Assembly: GCF_002797535.1 (NCBI RefSeq) | Contig: NZ_PGFD01000002.1 | Span: forward strand, 186,001 to 250,000 | Source: Chryseobacterium geocarposphaerae | GTDB taxonomy: Bacteria > Bacteroidota > Bacteroidia > Flavobacteriales > Weeksellaceae | Direction: 5' to 3' | DNA length: 64,000 nt | Shown: positions 58,471-64,000 of the stretch, piece by piece | Numbering within the stretch: position 1 is the stretch's first letter | Layout of the letters: each line of letters opens with the position of its first letter | The notes under the pieces: generated by a model | What the model was told of the DNA's origin: nothing | The model's input: only the letters and a program-made list of their open reading frames with translations | Database searches by the model: none | Position numbers and translations under genes: made by a program

Positions 58471-58502
58471 AAAAAGCTGCCCAATTAATGAGGCAGCTTT
58501 TT
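58471..58502. terminator. Bidirectional terminator after the protease gene
   Basis: AAAAAGCTGCC / GGCAGCTTTTT, 11-bp stem with a 10-base loop; its end touches the stop codon of the convergent gene. Confidence 0.8.
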
Positions 58503-59263
58503 TAATTTTCAGGGTTTAGCACTTCTATATTTTTTATTATTTTGCTGATATATACATTGCGCTTCTTATTATTGAAACTTTTACCAAGCTTTTTTATTTC
58601 TTTTTTTAAGAATGATAAATCCCACTCAATTAAAAGTTTAACTTTCTTTCTCTTGTCATAAGGATTTATTATTAGGAAAACTGTTTTTGAAACATAACCT
58701 TTAGAAGTAGAAATATTTTTAGACTTTATAATTTTAAGAGGTCTCAACCAGCAATAAAAATCAGAAAAGGATTTATTTACAAAAATTGTTTTATTAAGAT
58801 TTTGTAAAATATAAATATAAGGTTCTGTATCCTCATCAATCAACTTAGATCTGAAGTGTGTTACAAAAAACTCTCCATTGTTTTCTGCTTTTAGAGACTT
58901 TATGTAATATTTTTGATATTCTTTTGAAACATCATTATTAAGCTCATATAATTCATTTAGCCTATTAATCACCTCATTCTTATAAAAGCTAATATTATCC
59001 CATATTATGGTAATTTTATAATTACTTTTAATTGATCCAGAAAAATAGAATTGCGTAGCATAATTACAGCCACTTCTTTGAGTATAAAGAATTTTCGGCG
59101 GTAATTGATTCATTTCATGTAATAATTTAGAAAAAGGCTGATTGAGATAGAGGTTTTTATTCATCTCAAATTGCTTTATGTAATTGAGAGTATCTAGTTG
59201 AGCCAATACCTTTAGGTGTACTAATACAAGCATACAAAGGAGTATTTTATATAATATTTTCAT
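58502..59263 (-). CDS. Secreted protein of the QLDTLNYxKQFE family, long copy
   Basis: 253 residues. Signal peptide ending in LAQ (about residue 22), then QLDTLNYIKQFEMNKNLY and NQPFSKLLHEM, a stretch that is repeated almost unchanged in the gene at 61117-61530. The remainder is mixed alpha/beta and Lys/Asn/Ile-rich with no known motif. It is directly downstream of a decayed linker copy, so it may have been the partner (immunity-like) gene of a lost cassette. That role is inference. Confidence 0.65.
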   Translation of the reverse strand: MKILYKILLCMLVLVHLKVLAQLDTLNYIKQFEMNKNLYLNQPFSKLLHEMNQLPPKILYTQRSGCNYATQFYFSGSIKSNYKITIIWDNISFYKNEVINRLNELYELNNDVSKEYQKYYIKSLKAENNGEFFVTHFRSKLIDEDTEPYIYILQNLNKTIFVNKSFSDFYCWLRPLKIIKSKNISTSKGYVSKTVFLIINPYDKRKKVKLLIEWDLSFLKKEIKKLGKSFNNKKRNVYISKIIKNIEVLNPEN

Positions 59264-59357
59264 TTATAAAATTTATGTTTTTTTCGATTTTACATCTTTA
59301 GAAGAAGAATTACTAAATAATTGAGGTAATAGTTCCTGAGATTATATACAGAGTATT

Positions 59358-59466
59358 AGGATTTTCTCCTCCTCCCGTGCTTCCACCGCCGCCGCCTCAT
59401 GTTCCCTGATCATGATACGTCATTGATTTCTAAACACATTGTGATTACAATATATAGCAGTGTACC
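59358..59466 (-). pseudogene. Decayed linker cassette, copy 1
   Basis: On the minus strand the sequence reads LYIVITMCLEINDVS, then a stop and frame change, then GGGGGSTGGGENP. This is a degenerate copy of the linker VTTTCLEQNDD...GGGSTGGGENP found at 60818 and 62286. Nothing of the downstream JAMM-like domain remains here. The gap 59264-59539 holds no other gene. Confidence 0.75.
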
Positions 59467-59539
59467 TGCTACTCTCATTGTAAATCAAGCAGCTTCAGTA
59501 GTTATAGAAATTAAATAATAACCTCGGAAAGACGTTTAT

Positions 59540-60091
59540 TTACTGTTTTACTAAATGAATGAGTTGTTCATAAGGAATCGTAGGTTGAAAATTTATAGGA
59601 CATTTTCCTTCTATTGTAGTATCATTATCTGGAATCATTATAATAGTCATTTGATCGGGTGTTGTAGGCTGTATTCTTAAATAGACGTCTCCATATTCTG
59701 CACACCCTATACTTGGACCATGGAAATATACTATATATGCCTTTAAGTCTGGTTGAAAATTTGTTCCAAAAAAATGAGTTTTATCATCATCTGCTTCTGC
59801 AAAACTATTATAAATAATATTTCCATTAGAATCTGTGATTCTAAGTCTTCCGATTAATCTATCATCTTTAATATCCTTACCTACATTTTCTTTTTTAATA
59901 AATTTAAACTCATAGTTTTTTCCATTTAAGTTTCCTTGCCAAGTTCCTACATATTTGTTAAGAGAATTATTTATATCTTTTACATAGGTAAAATTTGGGC
60001 AAGGAAAAGGAGGATTTTCCTGCATGCATTGGGCTGCGGTTTCTAAAGAAACTGTTTGAGATTTACAAGAAACTGTAAATAAAATAAATAG
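59540..60091 (-). pseudogene. DUF6705-like lipoprotein gene with damaged 5' end
   Basis: The clean part starts at ATG 60025 (MQENPPFPCPN) and gives 161 residues with KYVGTWQGNLNGKNYEF and a C-terminal EQLIHLVKQ, matching the family of the genes at 62576 and 63150. In the same frame upstream lie the remains of a lipoprotein signal (ILFTVSCKSQTVSLETAAQC), but it runs into a stop (60092-60094) before any start codon. Either the start was lost by a small deletion or the protein is now made without its signal. Probably not functional as an exported protein. Confidence 0.65.
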
Positions 60092-60120
60092 TCAATAAAT
60101 AATATTTCAGAATAAATATA

Positions 60121-61068
60121 TTAGTTCGGGCAGTTGATTTCATCAGTATCTGTTTTAGTTGCATTTAATTTTATTTCTGTAGTTGTTCCATTAGTATTAG
60201 TTCTGTATAAAGATATTCCTTTCAAATTCATTTTTTCGTCTATAAATTTAAGAAATCCAAACTCTCTTGCCTTTACATTTTCGTTGCGATATTTCATAAA
60301 ATCAACAAAAAGATCTTTGTATGTTTCTGTTTGAGCGTCAGTAAAAGTTTTTATCTGATATTGATTTCCTGTAAAACGAATCTGATAATTTCCTAGACTG
60401 GAAACCATTACTCCATATACATTGTTCAATGGTTGTCCTGTAGTTTGAGCATTTTTCACTAAGTCCATAAAATATGCTATATCAGCCGGGGAAAACATTT
60501 TAATACCATTCTTATCTCTTTCATAGCCTTGGGCGTCAAGAAATTTATAATTATTAACATGGGTATGGATAAATCCTTTGATGTAAGTATTTGTCTCCAC
60601 ATTTGGTAAACTAAGTGTGTTAGCATTATTAGTTGCACCTGCATTATCTTTATAAATATAATCACCACTCCATTTTTGGATGTAACCTGTTTCTTTTTTA
60701 AGATTGGTTTTGCCTTCTAAATCTGTAATCTTGTTTTTGAACTCGATATCAGCTCTTTGCAATTTAATCTGTTCACACAAATCATTTTTAGGGGGCAAGT
60801 TTGGCAGACTCGGCAAACCGATAGGACAGCCGTTTTCATCGGTAAAGCCAGATTCAGGATTACTCGGGATTATAGAAGTATCACAAGGCGGATCATAAGG
60901 ATTTTCTCCTCCTCCCGTGCTTCCACCGCCTCCTCCTCCGGTTCCCGGATCAATAGGAGTAATGATGTCATCATTTTGTTCCAGACAGGTCGTAGTGACA
61001 ATGGTATACAATATAGGAGGCGTTCCTTGCTCCAGCCCGTTATAGATAGGACAGCTTTCATAACCGTG
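60121..61068 (-). pseudogene. Orphan C-terminal module: linker plus JAMM-like domain
   Basis: An open frame of 315 residues with no proper start: it begins after a stop at 61071-61069 with GYESCPIYNGLEQGTPPILY, and only a TTG (61011) could serve. Then comes the linker (VTTTCLEQNDD, Gly-rich GTGGGGGGSTGGGENP, PPCDTSIIPSNPESGFTDEN) and a domain with KTNLKKETGYIQ, HTH (at 60567-60559), 22 residues, SPAD, then YGVMVSSLGNYQI and a C-terminal NLKGISLYRTN. The HxH...SxxD set resembles the JAMM metalloprotease signature. It looks like the displaced C-terminus of a larger protein. Whether it is expressed is unknown. Confidence 0.65.
60818..61003 (-). repeat. 186-bp linker repeat, copy 2
   Basis: Direct repeat of 62286-62471, same length and no gaps, with about 12 differences counted by eye (about 94% identity). 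Encodes the linker from VTTTCLEQ to ENGCPIG. Differences cluster in the Gly codons. Confidence 0.85.
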
Positions 61069-61116
61069 TTACGCCGTTGGGTTCCGTTACACCATCGATA
61101 TTGTAGCCAAATTATT

Positions 61117-61530
61117 CTAATGTGAACGATAGACCTTTATATCCTTCACTATTTTATTACCATAATAATTTTTCTCATCATTAGTAAAAAAGAAACCGTT
61201 TTTATTCTCATAATAATCCGTCTCTGACACAGGTAAAGGAGTTTGCCATACAATAACTAATATTATATTACTCGAAAATGATTCATCCATTTCGCAGAAT
61301 TTAAATCTTGAAAAAGGTATTATACTTTTATTTTTAAAACTCATTCCTCCCCACACAGACTTTGGTTGTATTTGTACCATATTATTTAATAGTTTGGAAA
61401 ATGGTTGATTAATATACTCAACTTTATTAGCCTCAAATTGTTTTAAATAATTCAAAGTGTCCAACTGGGCAGAGATTTCCAAGCTTATCAAAAAAAATGA
61501 GCAAAAAAATATTTTATATAGTGTTTTCAT
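61117..61530 (-). CDS. Secreted protein of the QLDTLNYxKQFE family, short copy
   Basis: 137 residues. Signal peptide, then AQLDTLNYLKQFEANKVEY and INQPFSKLLNNM as in the 253-residue protein at 58502-59263. The middle of that protein is missing here; the ends correspond (KIVKDIKVY versus KIIKNIEVL). Its stop codon abuts the out-of-frame 5' remains of the orphan module downstream. Either a deleted relic or a shorter family member. Confidence 0.6.
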   Translation of the reverse strand: MKTLYKIFFCSFFLISLEISAQLDTLNYLKQFEANKVEYINQPFSKLLNNMVQIQPKSVWGGMSFKNKSIIPFSRFKFCEMDESFSSNIILVIVWQTPLPVSETDYYENKNGFFFTNDEKNYYGNKIVKDIKVYRSH

Positions 61531-61542
61531 TTTTCATTTTAT

Positions 61543-62471
61543 TTAAAGGTTACAGTTTTCCGTTCTATTATAAATTTTCTTTTTTGGATTGTTTGAATCT
61601 TGTTGTTCTTCCACAAATATAGGCTTAAAGTCTCCGTTAGGATCTTTTTTGCTTAATCCTACTCCTGAGTTATACTTTTTCAAGATATATGCCATTGCCA
61701 ATTCAAATGATTCATTTTTGGATTTCCCATCTTCTTCTTAAAATAATCAGAAACATCATAAAAGCTATCTCCTATAACATTTCCATATACCCAACTTCCA
61801 TATTGATTATCAGTATATTCATTTTCGGGATAAGTAGTAGCAAAACTTTTGAATTGATTTGATCTATAATGCTATAAACATAATCATTTCCATCATAGCT
61901 TATTGTATAATATAAAGTAAATTCGCTATTGGTATCGTTAGCTTTCATGAAAGAATAAATATCAGTCGCAGAAGGAGGAGCCGCACCTCCCGGACTATGA
62001 GTATGTACTCCTGCTTTTACTGTAAAATAAGAACTTTTTGCCACAATATTTGTTTGTGTACCGGAAAAGTCTTCAAATATAGGAGTTACCTGCTCTATTC
62101 CATTTACATCTATGCCAAGAGAAAAAGATTTTTCATTTACATTGGTTGCGATTCCCGTTTTAACTTCAACAATCCTATCATTTGCTTTAGTCTTAGAAAG
62201 AAATTCCTTTGCCTTTATATTATTCTCCAAAATTTTATCACAAGGTTTAACTTTTGGATCAGGTAAATTCGGAATGGTAGGTGTCCCGATAAGACAGCCG
62301 TTTTCATCGGTAAAACCAGATTCCGGATTACTCGGGATTATAGAAGTATCACAAGGCGGATCATGAGGATTTTCTCCTCCTCCCGTGCTTCCACCACTAC
62401 CTCCACCTGTTCCCGGATCAATAGGAGTAATGATGTCATCATTTTGTTCCAGGCAGGTCGTGGTTACAATG
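61543..62471 (-). pseudogene. Frameshifted linker plus JAMM-like module
   Basis: Read right to left: linker (IVTTTCLEQNDD to TDENGCLIGTPTIPNLPDPK), KVKPCDKILENNIKAKEFLS, then VKAGVHTHSPGGAAPPSATD, an HxH-x8-SxxD JAMM motif at 62005-61961. Near 61858 the frame shifts (QINSK, then SFATTYPENEYTDNQYGSWV), and near 61735 it shifts again (DYFKK, then NESFELAMAYILKKYNSGVG), ending NRTENCNL and a stop at 61545-61543. Two frameshifts and no start codon mark it as a pseudogene, unless they are sequencing errors. The 5' side joins directly to a DUF6705 fragment. Confidence 0.8.
62286..62471 (-). repeat. 186-bp linker repeat, copy 3
   Basis: Partner of 60818-61003 (about 94% identical by eye). Similarity stops abruptly at 62471, where sequence related to a DUF6705 gene begins. 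Confidence 0.85.
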
Positions 62472-62568
62472 GATAGGAATTATTGAGATATTACTTCCTA
62501 AAACATAAATAGACGATTGTAATTTACACGAAATCATAACAAATAAAAGTGATAATAAGATTTTTCAT
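62472..62568 (-). pseudogene. 5' fragment of a third DUF6705-like gene
   Basis: Starts with ATGAAAAATCTTATTAT at 62568, like the two intact neighbours. It then lacks about ten bases of the signal-peptide core, is frameshifted, and continues in a second frame as FVMISCKLQSSIYVLG before joining the linker repeat at 62471. It is the remains of a third tandem copy cut by the recombination that brought in the linker module. Confidence 0.75.
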
Positions 62569-62575
62569 CTTATCA

Positions 62576-63142
62576 TTATTGTTTTATTAACTCAATATCT
62601 GTTGGTACTCTAACATCAGTAGCAGGATTTAAAGACATACCTGGAATACCTTGTGCTGGTACAATACCGGTTACTTTTAAATCCCAATGAAGTTTCTCAA
62701 TACCGTTTTGATTAGAGTAAGTCAGAATAATTTTACTATGAATCCTTGGTCTTTCTGGGTCTTTAAAATATAATGTTACTTTATTTGTATTCCCTTCCCA
62801 CAAAGTAAATCCAAAAATTCTTGATTTTTTCCCAGTAAAATTAGATGTATTGGTATTTACAACAGTATTTCCATTTATAGTATAAATATAATTACCTTGT
62901 AATTCATCAACATAATAATCTATAATTTTTACCATTTCTGCTTTATTGAGTATAATGGTAAATATTTTTCCGTTTTTATTATATGTCCATGTTCCTACAA
63001 ATTTATTTAAAACATTATCGGTGTCTTTTAGATAACTGTTTTCGGGACTATTGACAGGGCTTTGCCCTAAAGTGTAAATAGGAGATTGTGATTTGCAGGA
63101 AATCATAACAAATAAAAATAAGAGTATAATAAGATTTTTCAT
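62576..63142 (-). CDS. DUF6705-like lipoprotein, copy 2
   Basis: 188 residues. Lipobox VMISC (C16) then KSQSPIYTLGQSPVN. The core has KFVGTWTYNKNGKIFTI and YFKDPERPRIHSKI, and the end is GIVPAQGIPGMSLNPATDVR to IELIKQ. Both ends are nearly identical to the gene at 63150-63707 while the middle differs. The FVGTW start of the core recalls lipocalin-like barrels. I place it in DUF6705 from memory. It could be an immunity-like partner for the JAMM-type modules; unproven. Confidence 0.75.
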   Translation of the reverse strand: MKNLIILLFLFVMISCKSQSPIYTLGQSPVNSPENSYLKDTDNVLNKFVGTWTYNKNGKIFTIILNKAEMVKIIDYYVDELQGNYIYTINGNTVVNTNTSNFTGKKSRIFGFTLWEGNTNKVTLYFKDPERPRIHSKIILTYSNQNGIEKLHWDLKVTGIVPAQGIPGMSLNPATDVRVPTDIELIKQ

Positions 63143-63149
63143 CTTATCA

Positions 63150-63707
63150 TTATTGTTTTATTAACTCAATATCTGTTGGTACTCTAATGTCAGTAGCGGG
63201 GTTTAAAGACATACCTGGAATACCTTGTGCTGGTACAATACCTTTCACTTTTAATTCCCAATGAAGTTTCTCAACTCCACCTTGGTTAGAGTATGTTAGG
63301 TCAACTTCACAGGAAACTCTTGGTCTTTCTGGGTCATAAAAAAGCGAACTTACTTTATCTAGATTATTTTCCCACAACCAAGCTCCTGATATTTTTGATT
63401 TATTAATAGGGTAATTACTTGTATCAACAATCGTTAAAGAACCATTTGTATATATGTAGTACCCTTTTAACATATCTTTGTAGTATCCATTCAGATCAGC
63501 TTTATATTTTTGAAGGGTTATAGTAAAGGTTTTTCCATTATTCTCATACTTCCAAGTACCTGAAAATTTATTCAAGATATTGTTTGTATCTTTTATATAA
63601 GCATTATTCGGAAGATTTGTAGGACTTTCTCCTAAAGTATAAATAGGCGATTGTGATTTACAGGAAATCATAACAAATAAAAATAAGAGTATAATAAGAT
63701 TTTTCAT
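63150..63707 (-). CDS. DUF6705-like lipoprotein, copy 1
   Basis: 185 residues, lipobox VMISC (C16), KSQSPIYTLGESPTN, core KFSGTWKYENNGKTFTI and FYDPERPRVSCEVDL, C-terminus as in the next copy. Only 7 bases separate the two genes, and the joint between them recurs at 62562-62594, marking tandem duplication. It lies 14 bases downstream of the JAMM-module gene at the window edge, so it is probably co-transcribed with it. Confidence 0.75.
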   Translation of the reverse strand: MKNLIILLFLFVMISCKSQSPIYTLGESPTNLPNNAYIKDTNNILNKFSGTWKYENNGKTFTITLQKYKADLNGYYKDMLKGYYIYTNGSLTIVDTSNYPINKSKISGAWLWENNLDKVSSLFYDPERPRVSCEVDLTYSNQGGVEKLHWELKVKGIVPAQGIPGMSLNPATDIRVPTDIELIKQ

Positions 63708-63721
63708 AGTTTCAAATTTAA

Positions 63722-64000
63722 TTAATTACACGGAATTGTATTTACCATATCTGTAATGGAATTATAAGTAAGCCTACTCCAACTGCCTAGGTCCTTATTT
63801 GCCTTATAAAGACCTATGCCGTGAGTGGGTAATGCTTTTGAAACTTGCTTAATGACATCATCATAAACAATATTTCCTTTTTTCTTAAGATCCCCATAAA
63901 ATTTATTATATAATTCTTCTTCTTCCTCACCCCATATTTTATAGGTTTGAGTCAGAAATAAGTTTGGATCTTCCACTACCATTGCAAAAACTCCTGCTTT
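63722..64000 (-). CDS. C-terminus of a JAMM-module protein (5' part beyond the window)
   Basis: 92 codons plus stop, open to the right end (first visible residues KAGVFAMVVEDPNLF). The end, THGIGLYKANKDLG ... VNTIPCN, corresponds to NLKGISLYRTNTNG ... INCPN of the orphan module at 60121 and to NSGVGLSKKD ... TENCNL of the pseudogene. So this is the last part of a related protein, likely the still-attached, intact version. The HxH motif would lie just off the window. Confidence 0.7.
   Translation of the reverse strand, partial: KAGVFAMVVEDPNLFLTQTYKIWGEEEEELYNKFYGDLKKKGNIVYDDVIKQVSKALPTHGIGLYKANKDLGSWSRLTYNSITDMVNTIPCN

Follow-up and report, generated by a model that had tools for sequence, protein, structure and literature searches.

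Fusion of a main rhs gene with an orphan tail by recombination is described in Salmonella (Koskiniemi 2014, PMC3967940), and lipoprotein polymorphic toxins are known experimentally from myxobacteria, the tails of the SitA toxins including a WHH nuclease (PMC5562445). JAB toxins were considered possible nucleases by Zhang 2012, in whose collection Imm65, the partner of Tox-JAB-1, is presented as the sole lipoprotein immunity protein; Amoebophilus effectors are regarded as directed against its host (PMC3482391). Here we have analysed a 64,000-nucleotide stretch, referred to as the window, of the 4.1-Mb Chryseobacterium geocarposphaerae genome (C2:186001-250000), the right-hand end of which carries an array of displaced JAMM-type tails and small lipoprotein or secreted genes, together with the lipoprotein gene beside it that ends in the same linker and a tail of the same type. 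Sequence comparison makes it very probable that the locus is of the polymorphic toxin/immunity kind, its orphan cassettes being Rhs-like and its carrier a lipoprotein of which we found no description.

The initial annotation had predicted a large main gene of the type IX secretion system (T9SS) or Rhs type to the right of position 64000, ending in the linker shared by the array. Extension of the contig to the right revealed a gene that ends in this linker 1.25 kb beyond the window, at C2:251252-252802 (it would be window 65252-66802). The predicted position was therefore correct, but the predicted size and type were not: the product is a lipoprotein of 516 aa in which RHS repeats, two-partner-secretion and haemagglutinin repeat domains (Pfam, NCBIfam) and a C-terminal T9SS sorting domain (NCBIfam up to E 1) were not found, and for which neither Pfam nor NCBIfam returned a family up to E 1. 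The NCBIfam library includes models of T9SS sorting domains. The protein is composed of a lipoprotein signal recognised by pattern (...FMICSC-RTDQ), an N-domain of ~235 residues, a Cys-/Gly-rich linker and a JAMM-type tail. With the main gene as blastn query, the linker, with flanks of varying extent, was detected at four further places beside the gene with 90-94% identity and E values of 0 to 8e-16, indicating that these repeats do not arise by chance. The matches extend over 136 bp at 64394-64529, beyond the window (91.9%), 185 bp at 62286-62470 (94.1%), 922 columns at 60147-61063 (91.3%) and 58 bp at a linker relic (89.7%). The JAMM tail profile has five matches in this genome, all at this locus. 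In the mechanism that we propose, the main gene would give rise to an exported lipoprotein with a constant N-domain, a linker and an exchangeable enzymatic tail, here resembling a JAMM metallopeptidase; each tail would have its immunity gene in the small gene, for a lipoprotein or secreted protein, that follows it; the array would consist of former tails plus their immunity genes; and the linker together with the N-domain end would serve as a homology arm at which recombination fuses another tail to the expressed head.

The N-domain is present in 51 of 173 Chryseobacterium genomes, with at most 13 matches per genome (single-sequence search), in 82 of 320 genomes and 7 of 33 genera of the family (26-row profile) and in 14 of 296 genomes spread over the order. 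Cys22 is invariant in 26 heads. A protein search yielded 148 relatives, the names among the 120 listed being hypothetical or uncharacterised protein, lipoprotein and DUF4329 domain-containing, and further relatives carry precomputed AHH and Tae4 annotations. From 60 fetched regions, which are a part of the N-domain matches, and four more loci, 60 main open reading frames (ORFs) were obtained; a second batch of 20 loci, drawn from further matches of the single-sequence and profile searches, was selected with the aim of finding tails other than JAMM, mostly on the basis of main ORFs of unusual length or divergence. Pfam detected Tae4 in the mains of L048 (1.2e-23) and L074 (4.4e-17), AHH in L082 (2.9e-10) and Tox-MPTase3 in L087 (1.5e-8), with no tail family over the cut-off in the other first-batch mains given to it, while seven mains from the second batch comprise three with AHH, one with Tae4 and three without a family. 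JAMM-type tails, assigned by motif, are carried by 54 of 78 mains. Among the 238 pairs of mains whose heads are similar, 205 combine tails of different clusters. Both a constant N-domain joined to unrelated C-terminal domains and stand-alone displaced tail cassettes, features by which polymorphic toxins are recognised, are found here. No Pfam family was over the cut-off for the tails of L057, L078, L080 and L137. A tail group formed by L076, L080 and L083 was also seen to recur, with small partners that have hydrophobic N-termini. The tails of L057, L078 and L137 and those of this group are candidates for new toxin domains.

The downstream partner gene changes with the tail, the activity of which it would neutralise. 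Linkage was quantified in a set made up of 58 of the 60 main ORFs (at least 380 aa) and 14 other motif-bearing ORFs, two of which were dropped as chance by reading (L056_6033, L059_7535) and three of which are mains with broken heads (L041, L063, L094); after exclusion of modules lacking a partner ORF, 66 modules remained. The partner was chosen mechanically: among same-strand ORFs of 80 aa or more that begin between -75 and +260 bases relative to the tail stop, the longest was used, a choice that is possibly wrong in a few cases, e.g. L079. A common partner family was observed in 198 of 202 same-cluster module pairs, compared with 73 on average and at most 122 in 2000 shuffles. DUF6705 partners follow 14 of 14, 8 of 8 and 6 of 6 tails (plus one without partner) in their respective clusters, a second partner family follows 9 of 9 tails of its cluster and a family here termed QLDTLNY follows 7 of 7 tails of the module-C-type cluster. 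Smaller tail clusters are less uniform, and two Tae4 mains have unlike partners. The second partner family aligns with QLDTLNY at few shared residues, and the two may constitute one superfamily. Over 54 mains, tail similarity correlated with partner similarity at 0.60 and head similarity with partner similarity at 0.18, the corresponding values in the 28 DUF6705-linked mains being 0.66 (0 of 1000 permutations) and 0.06. The initial annotation had likened the array to a polymorphic toxin/immunity locus, a classification with which the joint movement of tails and partners, the presence of known toxin domains and the Imm11-type genes behind AHH tails all agree.

Exchange of the tail is observed at a single chromosomal site. 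A comparison of strains, which the initial annotation had recommended, identified a sister genome, G020, with the same N-domain at the same site but with another tail, partner and orphan set. The flanks are 92.7% identical over 1348 bp on the side of infB, a gene named by reading its translation, and 90.7% over 2545 bp on the other, and the G020 head is 94.5% identical to that of the main gene over 888 bp. Identity per 60-base step is 0.88-1.00 in the head, falling to 0.78 at the linker end and 0.37-0.58 in the tail, with one later step, behind the main gene, at 0.78. Two of the G020 orphans are of a type unseen in the window and one is A-like by reading, and one orphan retains head residues from 80 on. 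The orphan modules of the window, designated A', B and C, in turn are found as tails of full-length proteins elsewhere: module A' in P0001 (98%), module B in P0043 (80%) and in P0004 of C. taihuense (76%), and the first piece of module C in P0038 (65%) and in P0021 of C. formosus (63%). P0001 differs from the main protein at three columns in the part that is absent from orphan A'. At the 34 columns where the main protein and A' differ, the first four in P0001 match the main protein, neither, the main protein and the main protein, respectively, and the remaining 30 match the orphan, a pattern that one crossover between the main gene and the window's orphan A' explains.

Displacement seems to have been accompanied by decay. 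A locus in a further genome, G133 (L040, G133:C1:2829600-2847000), contains a row of head copies with tails which are shorter or broken after the first, possibly a record of repeated displacement. The head fragments of decreasing length in G020 and G133 suggest a gradual loss of 5' ends from displaced genes. The initial annotation had proposed that repeated replacement pushed each older module leftwards; these shortening heads fit displacement and decay in general, whereas a serial leftward order is not apparent. Linker identity to the main gene, 91.9, 94.1, 91.3 and 89.7% in order and over differing lengths, gave no age gradient along the array, and module A', of the intact modules the one farthest away, almost duplicates the tail that the main gene now carries.

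The location predicted for the partner proteins also varied with the tail. Partners were available for 73 of the 78 mains examined, and tails were sorted by simple motifs. A hydrophobic N-terminal stretch of at least 1.5, a cut chosen after the values had been seen, is present in 52 of 53 JAMM partners, 3 of 3 Tae4 partners, 4 of 4 HExxH partners and 8 of 9 others, or 67 of 69 non-AHH partners in total, and in 0 of 4 AHH partners; values near the cut were those of L075 (1.05) and L135 (1.33), below it, and of one AHH partner (1.30). The AHH partners match Imm11 in Pfam (2.3e-13, 1.5e-10 and 6.8e-9), the L082 partner just under the cut-off (2.3e-4). The partner thus looks cytoplasmic behind nuclease tails, and behind amidase, metallopeptidase and JAMM-type tails it looks secreted or membrane-bound. 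Such a location is expected of immunity proteins, and the secreted JAMM partners suggest that JAMM tails may act in the envelope of the target.

If the toxin/immunity interpretation holds, delivery by a type VI secretion system (T6SS) instead of as surface lipoproteins is conceivable but unlikely. TssC is encoded in the window's genome and in 170 of 173 genus genomes, and Tae4 tails are named after T6SS effectors; however, TssC is so nearly universal that its presence cannot discriminate T6SS dependence. Against T6SS delivery are the lipoprotein signal at the head and the occurrence of the N-domain in G029 and G152, both of which are without a TssC match. A lipoprotein signal is unusual for T6SS cargo. 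Less probable again is variation of a surface lipoprotein from silent cassettes, resembling antigenic variation and permitting escape from phage or recognition, with the partners as accessory lipoproteins. Silent cassettes with shared homology arms beside one expressed gene, the lipoprotein signal and the mosaic P0001 would all be anticipated, but the tails are enzymatic and include several known toxin domains, each tail type has its own partner family, and genes of the Imm11 type stand behind the AHH tails.

The toxin/immunity cassettes extend beyond the N-domain family. Of the 173 genus genomes, 135 have a DUF6705 match and 141 a match to the JAMM tail profile, so that both are commoner than the N-domain. 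Sixteen DUF6705 loci were taken from 12 genomes without a single-sequence N-domain match, one of which, G163, has a weak profile match. A JAMM ORF is located at the DUF6705 genes in 14 of these 16 loci, L117 having a truncated one only and L118 none. In L106-L116 and L119-L121, JAMM tails whose partners are DUF6705, QLDTLNY or related genes are joined to different lipoprotein heads that look unrelated. Apart from the N-domain, a minimum of three lipoprotein-like heads bearing JAMM tails were distinguished by eye (SCVHDE or similar, SCHNEDF/SCRNEDF and SCRTNEDYL), and on this visual judgement the cassettes seem to be shared among several anchors. A JAMM peptidase lipoprotein family of ordinary envelope or nutritional role, duplicating and decaying without purposeful exchange, would account for the tandem copies and decay in the window's genome, G020 and G133 and for the JAMM-type majority of tails (54 of 78 mains), but is very improbable given unrelated tails on the same head, the 205 of 238 similar-head pairs with different tail clusters and the JAMM-plus-DUF6705 cassettes on other lipoprotein heads. 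For the toxin/immunity interpretation we infer, from comparative evidence, that the tails would be toxic and neutralised by their partners, that the carrier would lie on the surface and reach neighbours by contact, and that JAMM action would be on the envelope. A wider proposal, which we advance tentatively and consider somewhat less probable than its converse, is of a so far unrecognised weapon, genus-wide in Chryseobacterium and used also by its relatives, consisting of surface lipoproteins with interchangeable anchors and pooled, swappable toxin tails, delivered by contact without a dedicated secretion machine, whose commonest warhead would be a JAMM metallopeptidase attacking the envelope. 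If this is true, JAB-type toxins here would be peptidases and not the nucleases once proposed.

The JAMM identity of the tails was assessed from catalytic residues, profiles and structure. As the label JAMM-like in the initial annotation implied, E, HxH and SxxD are retained in the main, A' and B tails, and likewise, by reading, in the first piece of module C. E329, H371, H373 and D399 are invariant in 32 sequences chosen as JAMM-like by reading, and L044, L054, L075 and L079 have Thr or Ala in place of the JAMM Ser; in the 50-row tail set, selected by motif, invariance of catalytic residues is partly built in. Toxin-JAB1 (PF15659) did not reach its cut-off of 21, only the first piece of module C giving a match (14.4 bits, E 0.056), and for the 50 tails it was not seen among the 25 of 33 Pfam families listed. 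Prok-JAB was the family most often touched by these tails, yet in 7 only (best 0.0011), and a search of the window's genome with it gave nothing at E 0.001. Foldseek returned nothing at E 0.001 for either the full-length or the tail model, the first tail rows (PCNA) looking like noise, and BRCC36, a JAMM protein, ranked first in a PDB profile search at E 0.51.

Several results weigh against the toxin/immunity interpretation or against parts of it. Neither the JAMM tails nor the N-domain reached a cut-off in Pfam or NCBIfam (main protein; 32 JAMM-like proteins and 50 tails by Pfam). Head and tail similarity are correlated at 0.28 over 54 mains, above all 1000 permutations, indicating that related loci tend to keep their tail and that exchange is not free. 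The comparison of tails at a single chromosomal site covers two genomes, and P0001, with a longest contig of 55,984 bases, is possibly an assembly chimera. Mature N-termini of the mains are mostly C-R-[NT]-[DE], with an acidic residue at +4 in 55 of 59 (a few starts being mis-set), and the putative export signal appears to resemble in part, without equalling, the published export signals, which are K-(D/E)2 in Capnocytophaga and, as a prediction, SDDFE in F. johnsoniae (PMC5080379).

The array pieces listed in the initial annotation were all found, on the minus strand and where it had placed them. Leftwards from infB, the order is HU-like and XRE-type regulator genes on the opposite strand, the main gene, a DUF6705 gene, module B and the array. 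DUF6705 (PF20448) is represented by four genes over the 24.4-bit cut-off, at 35.8, 97.1, 97.9 and 27.3 bits. An intact DUF6705 gene lies between the main gene and the window (C2:250661-251239, which would be window 64661-65239). The C-terminal end of module B, with its JAMM-type tail identified by ORF and motif, occupies 63722..64000 (the whole ORF would be 63722-64450) and is followed by a DUF6705 lipoprotein-like gene at 63150..63707 (97.1 bits), probably the module B immunity gene, by a second DUF6705 gene at 62576..63142 (97.9 bits), the protein of which is 69% identical to the product of the first, and by a remnant of the start of a third at approximately 62496..62568 (blastn, 85.9% to the start of 63150-63707). 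Module C comprises a linker with the N-domain end at 62286..62470, the 185-bp match given above, and a frameshifted JAMM-type tail at 61543..62230 (ORF pieces 61772-62230 and 61543-61701); behind it, at 61117..61530, a QLDTLNY gene of 137 aa with a signal peptide by pattern is the probable module C immunity gene, its protein sharing 76% identity with the partner behind L043, a main of the module C type. Module A' (60121..61011), detected with 91.3% identity to the main gene, retains linker and JAMM-type tail intact but lacks a lipoprotein start, and is preceded by an out-of-frame trace of the N-domain end at 61012..61063 (blastn; N-domain match at C2:246973-247065, 97%). Its former partner is a DUF6705-like gene without a signal-peptide start at 59540..60025 (27.3 bits), beyond which the 58-bp linker relic is located at 59355..59412. 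The block consisting of A', partner and relic is 85% identical over 1742 columns to the main tail, its partner and the next linker (blastn). The leftmost piece, an ORF at 58502..59263, is a QLDTLNY gene and probable immunity gene without a tail, which the family profile matches twice in tandem; this two-domain gene is perhaps a free-standing immunity gene.

Beyond the right edge of the window, a small gene for a regulator of the XRE type (C2:252934-253305; L001:10934-11305) is positioned divergently in front of the main gene. By tblastn, 20 of 64 loci are preceded by a relative of it at a distance of 66-242 bp, and by clustering a divergent XRE regulator is the commonest neighbour (29 of 60 main ORFs), although it is missing at the sister locus L039. 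This regulator may control the toxin gene. An association with anti-phage defence received no support, PADLOC giving no match for seven proteins.

In the literature on polymorphic, lipoprotein and JAB toxins, Bacteroidota and Chryseobacterium, searched through titles and the starts of abstracts with most subscription journals outside its coverage, no description of the carrier family was found, nor was any paper on DUF6705; the relevant mention in a C. gallinarum paper concerns Ntox23 proteins. The locus points to a second, independent case of lipoprotein toxins, in a common environmental genus, and suggests what DUF6705, a Pfam family to which no function is assigned, might do. The question of nuclease versus peptidase for JAB domains becomes testable within one carrier family, in which nuclease partners are without a signal peptide and JAMM partners are secreted.

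Compared with the accounts available of described systems, the locus shares with Rhs an expressed main gene, downstream start-less tail fragments each with a putative immunity gene, ~0.5 kb of near-identity, recombination of main gene and orphan, and orphan tails that are found on full-length proteins in other strains (PMC3967940). Unlike Rhs, the carrier here is a small lipoprotein with an unnamed N-domain and no RHS repeats. With SitA of Myxococcus it has in common the lipoprotein signal, a conserved N-terminus, polymorphic tails and a downstream gene for putative immunity (PMC5562445), but it belongs to another phylum and has no recurrent same-strand upstream gene like sitB, none occurring at more than 6 of 60 main ORFs. 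Lineage-specific constant heads with polymorphic tails are likewise a property of MafB-N and of APD1 and APD2 of Amoebophilus, the latter two behind a lipobox, and Bacteroidetes JAB tails with E, HxH, S and D and a lipoprotein immunity protein characterise Tox-JAB-1/Imm65 (PMC3482391). Tox-JAB-1 is described there as Rhs-fused and Imm65-linked, whereas the JAMM tails here are under the Pfam JAB cut-offs and have partners of the DUF6705 and QLDTLNY types. A nuclease activity was suggested for JAB toxins in the same work (PMC3482391); the secreted partners observed here argue for a target in the envelope.

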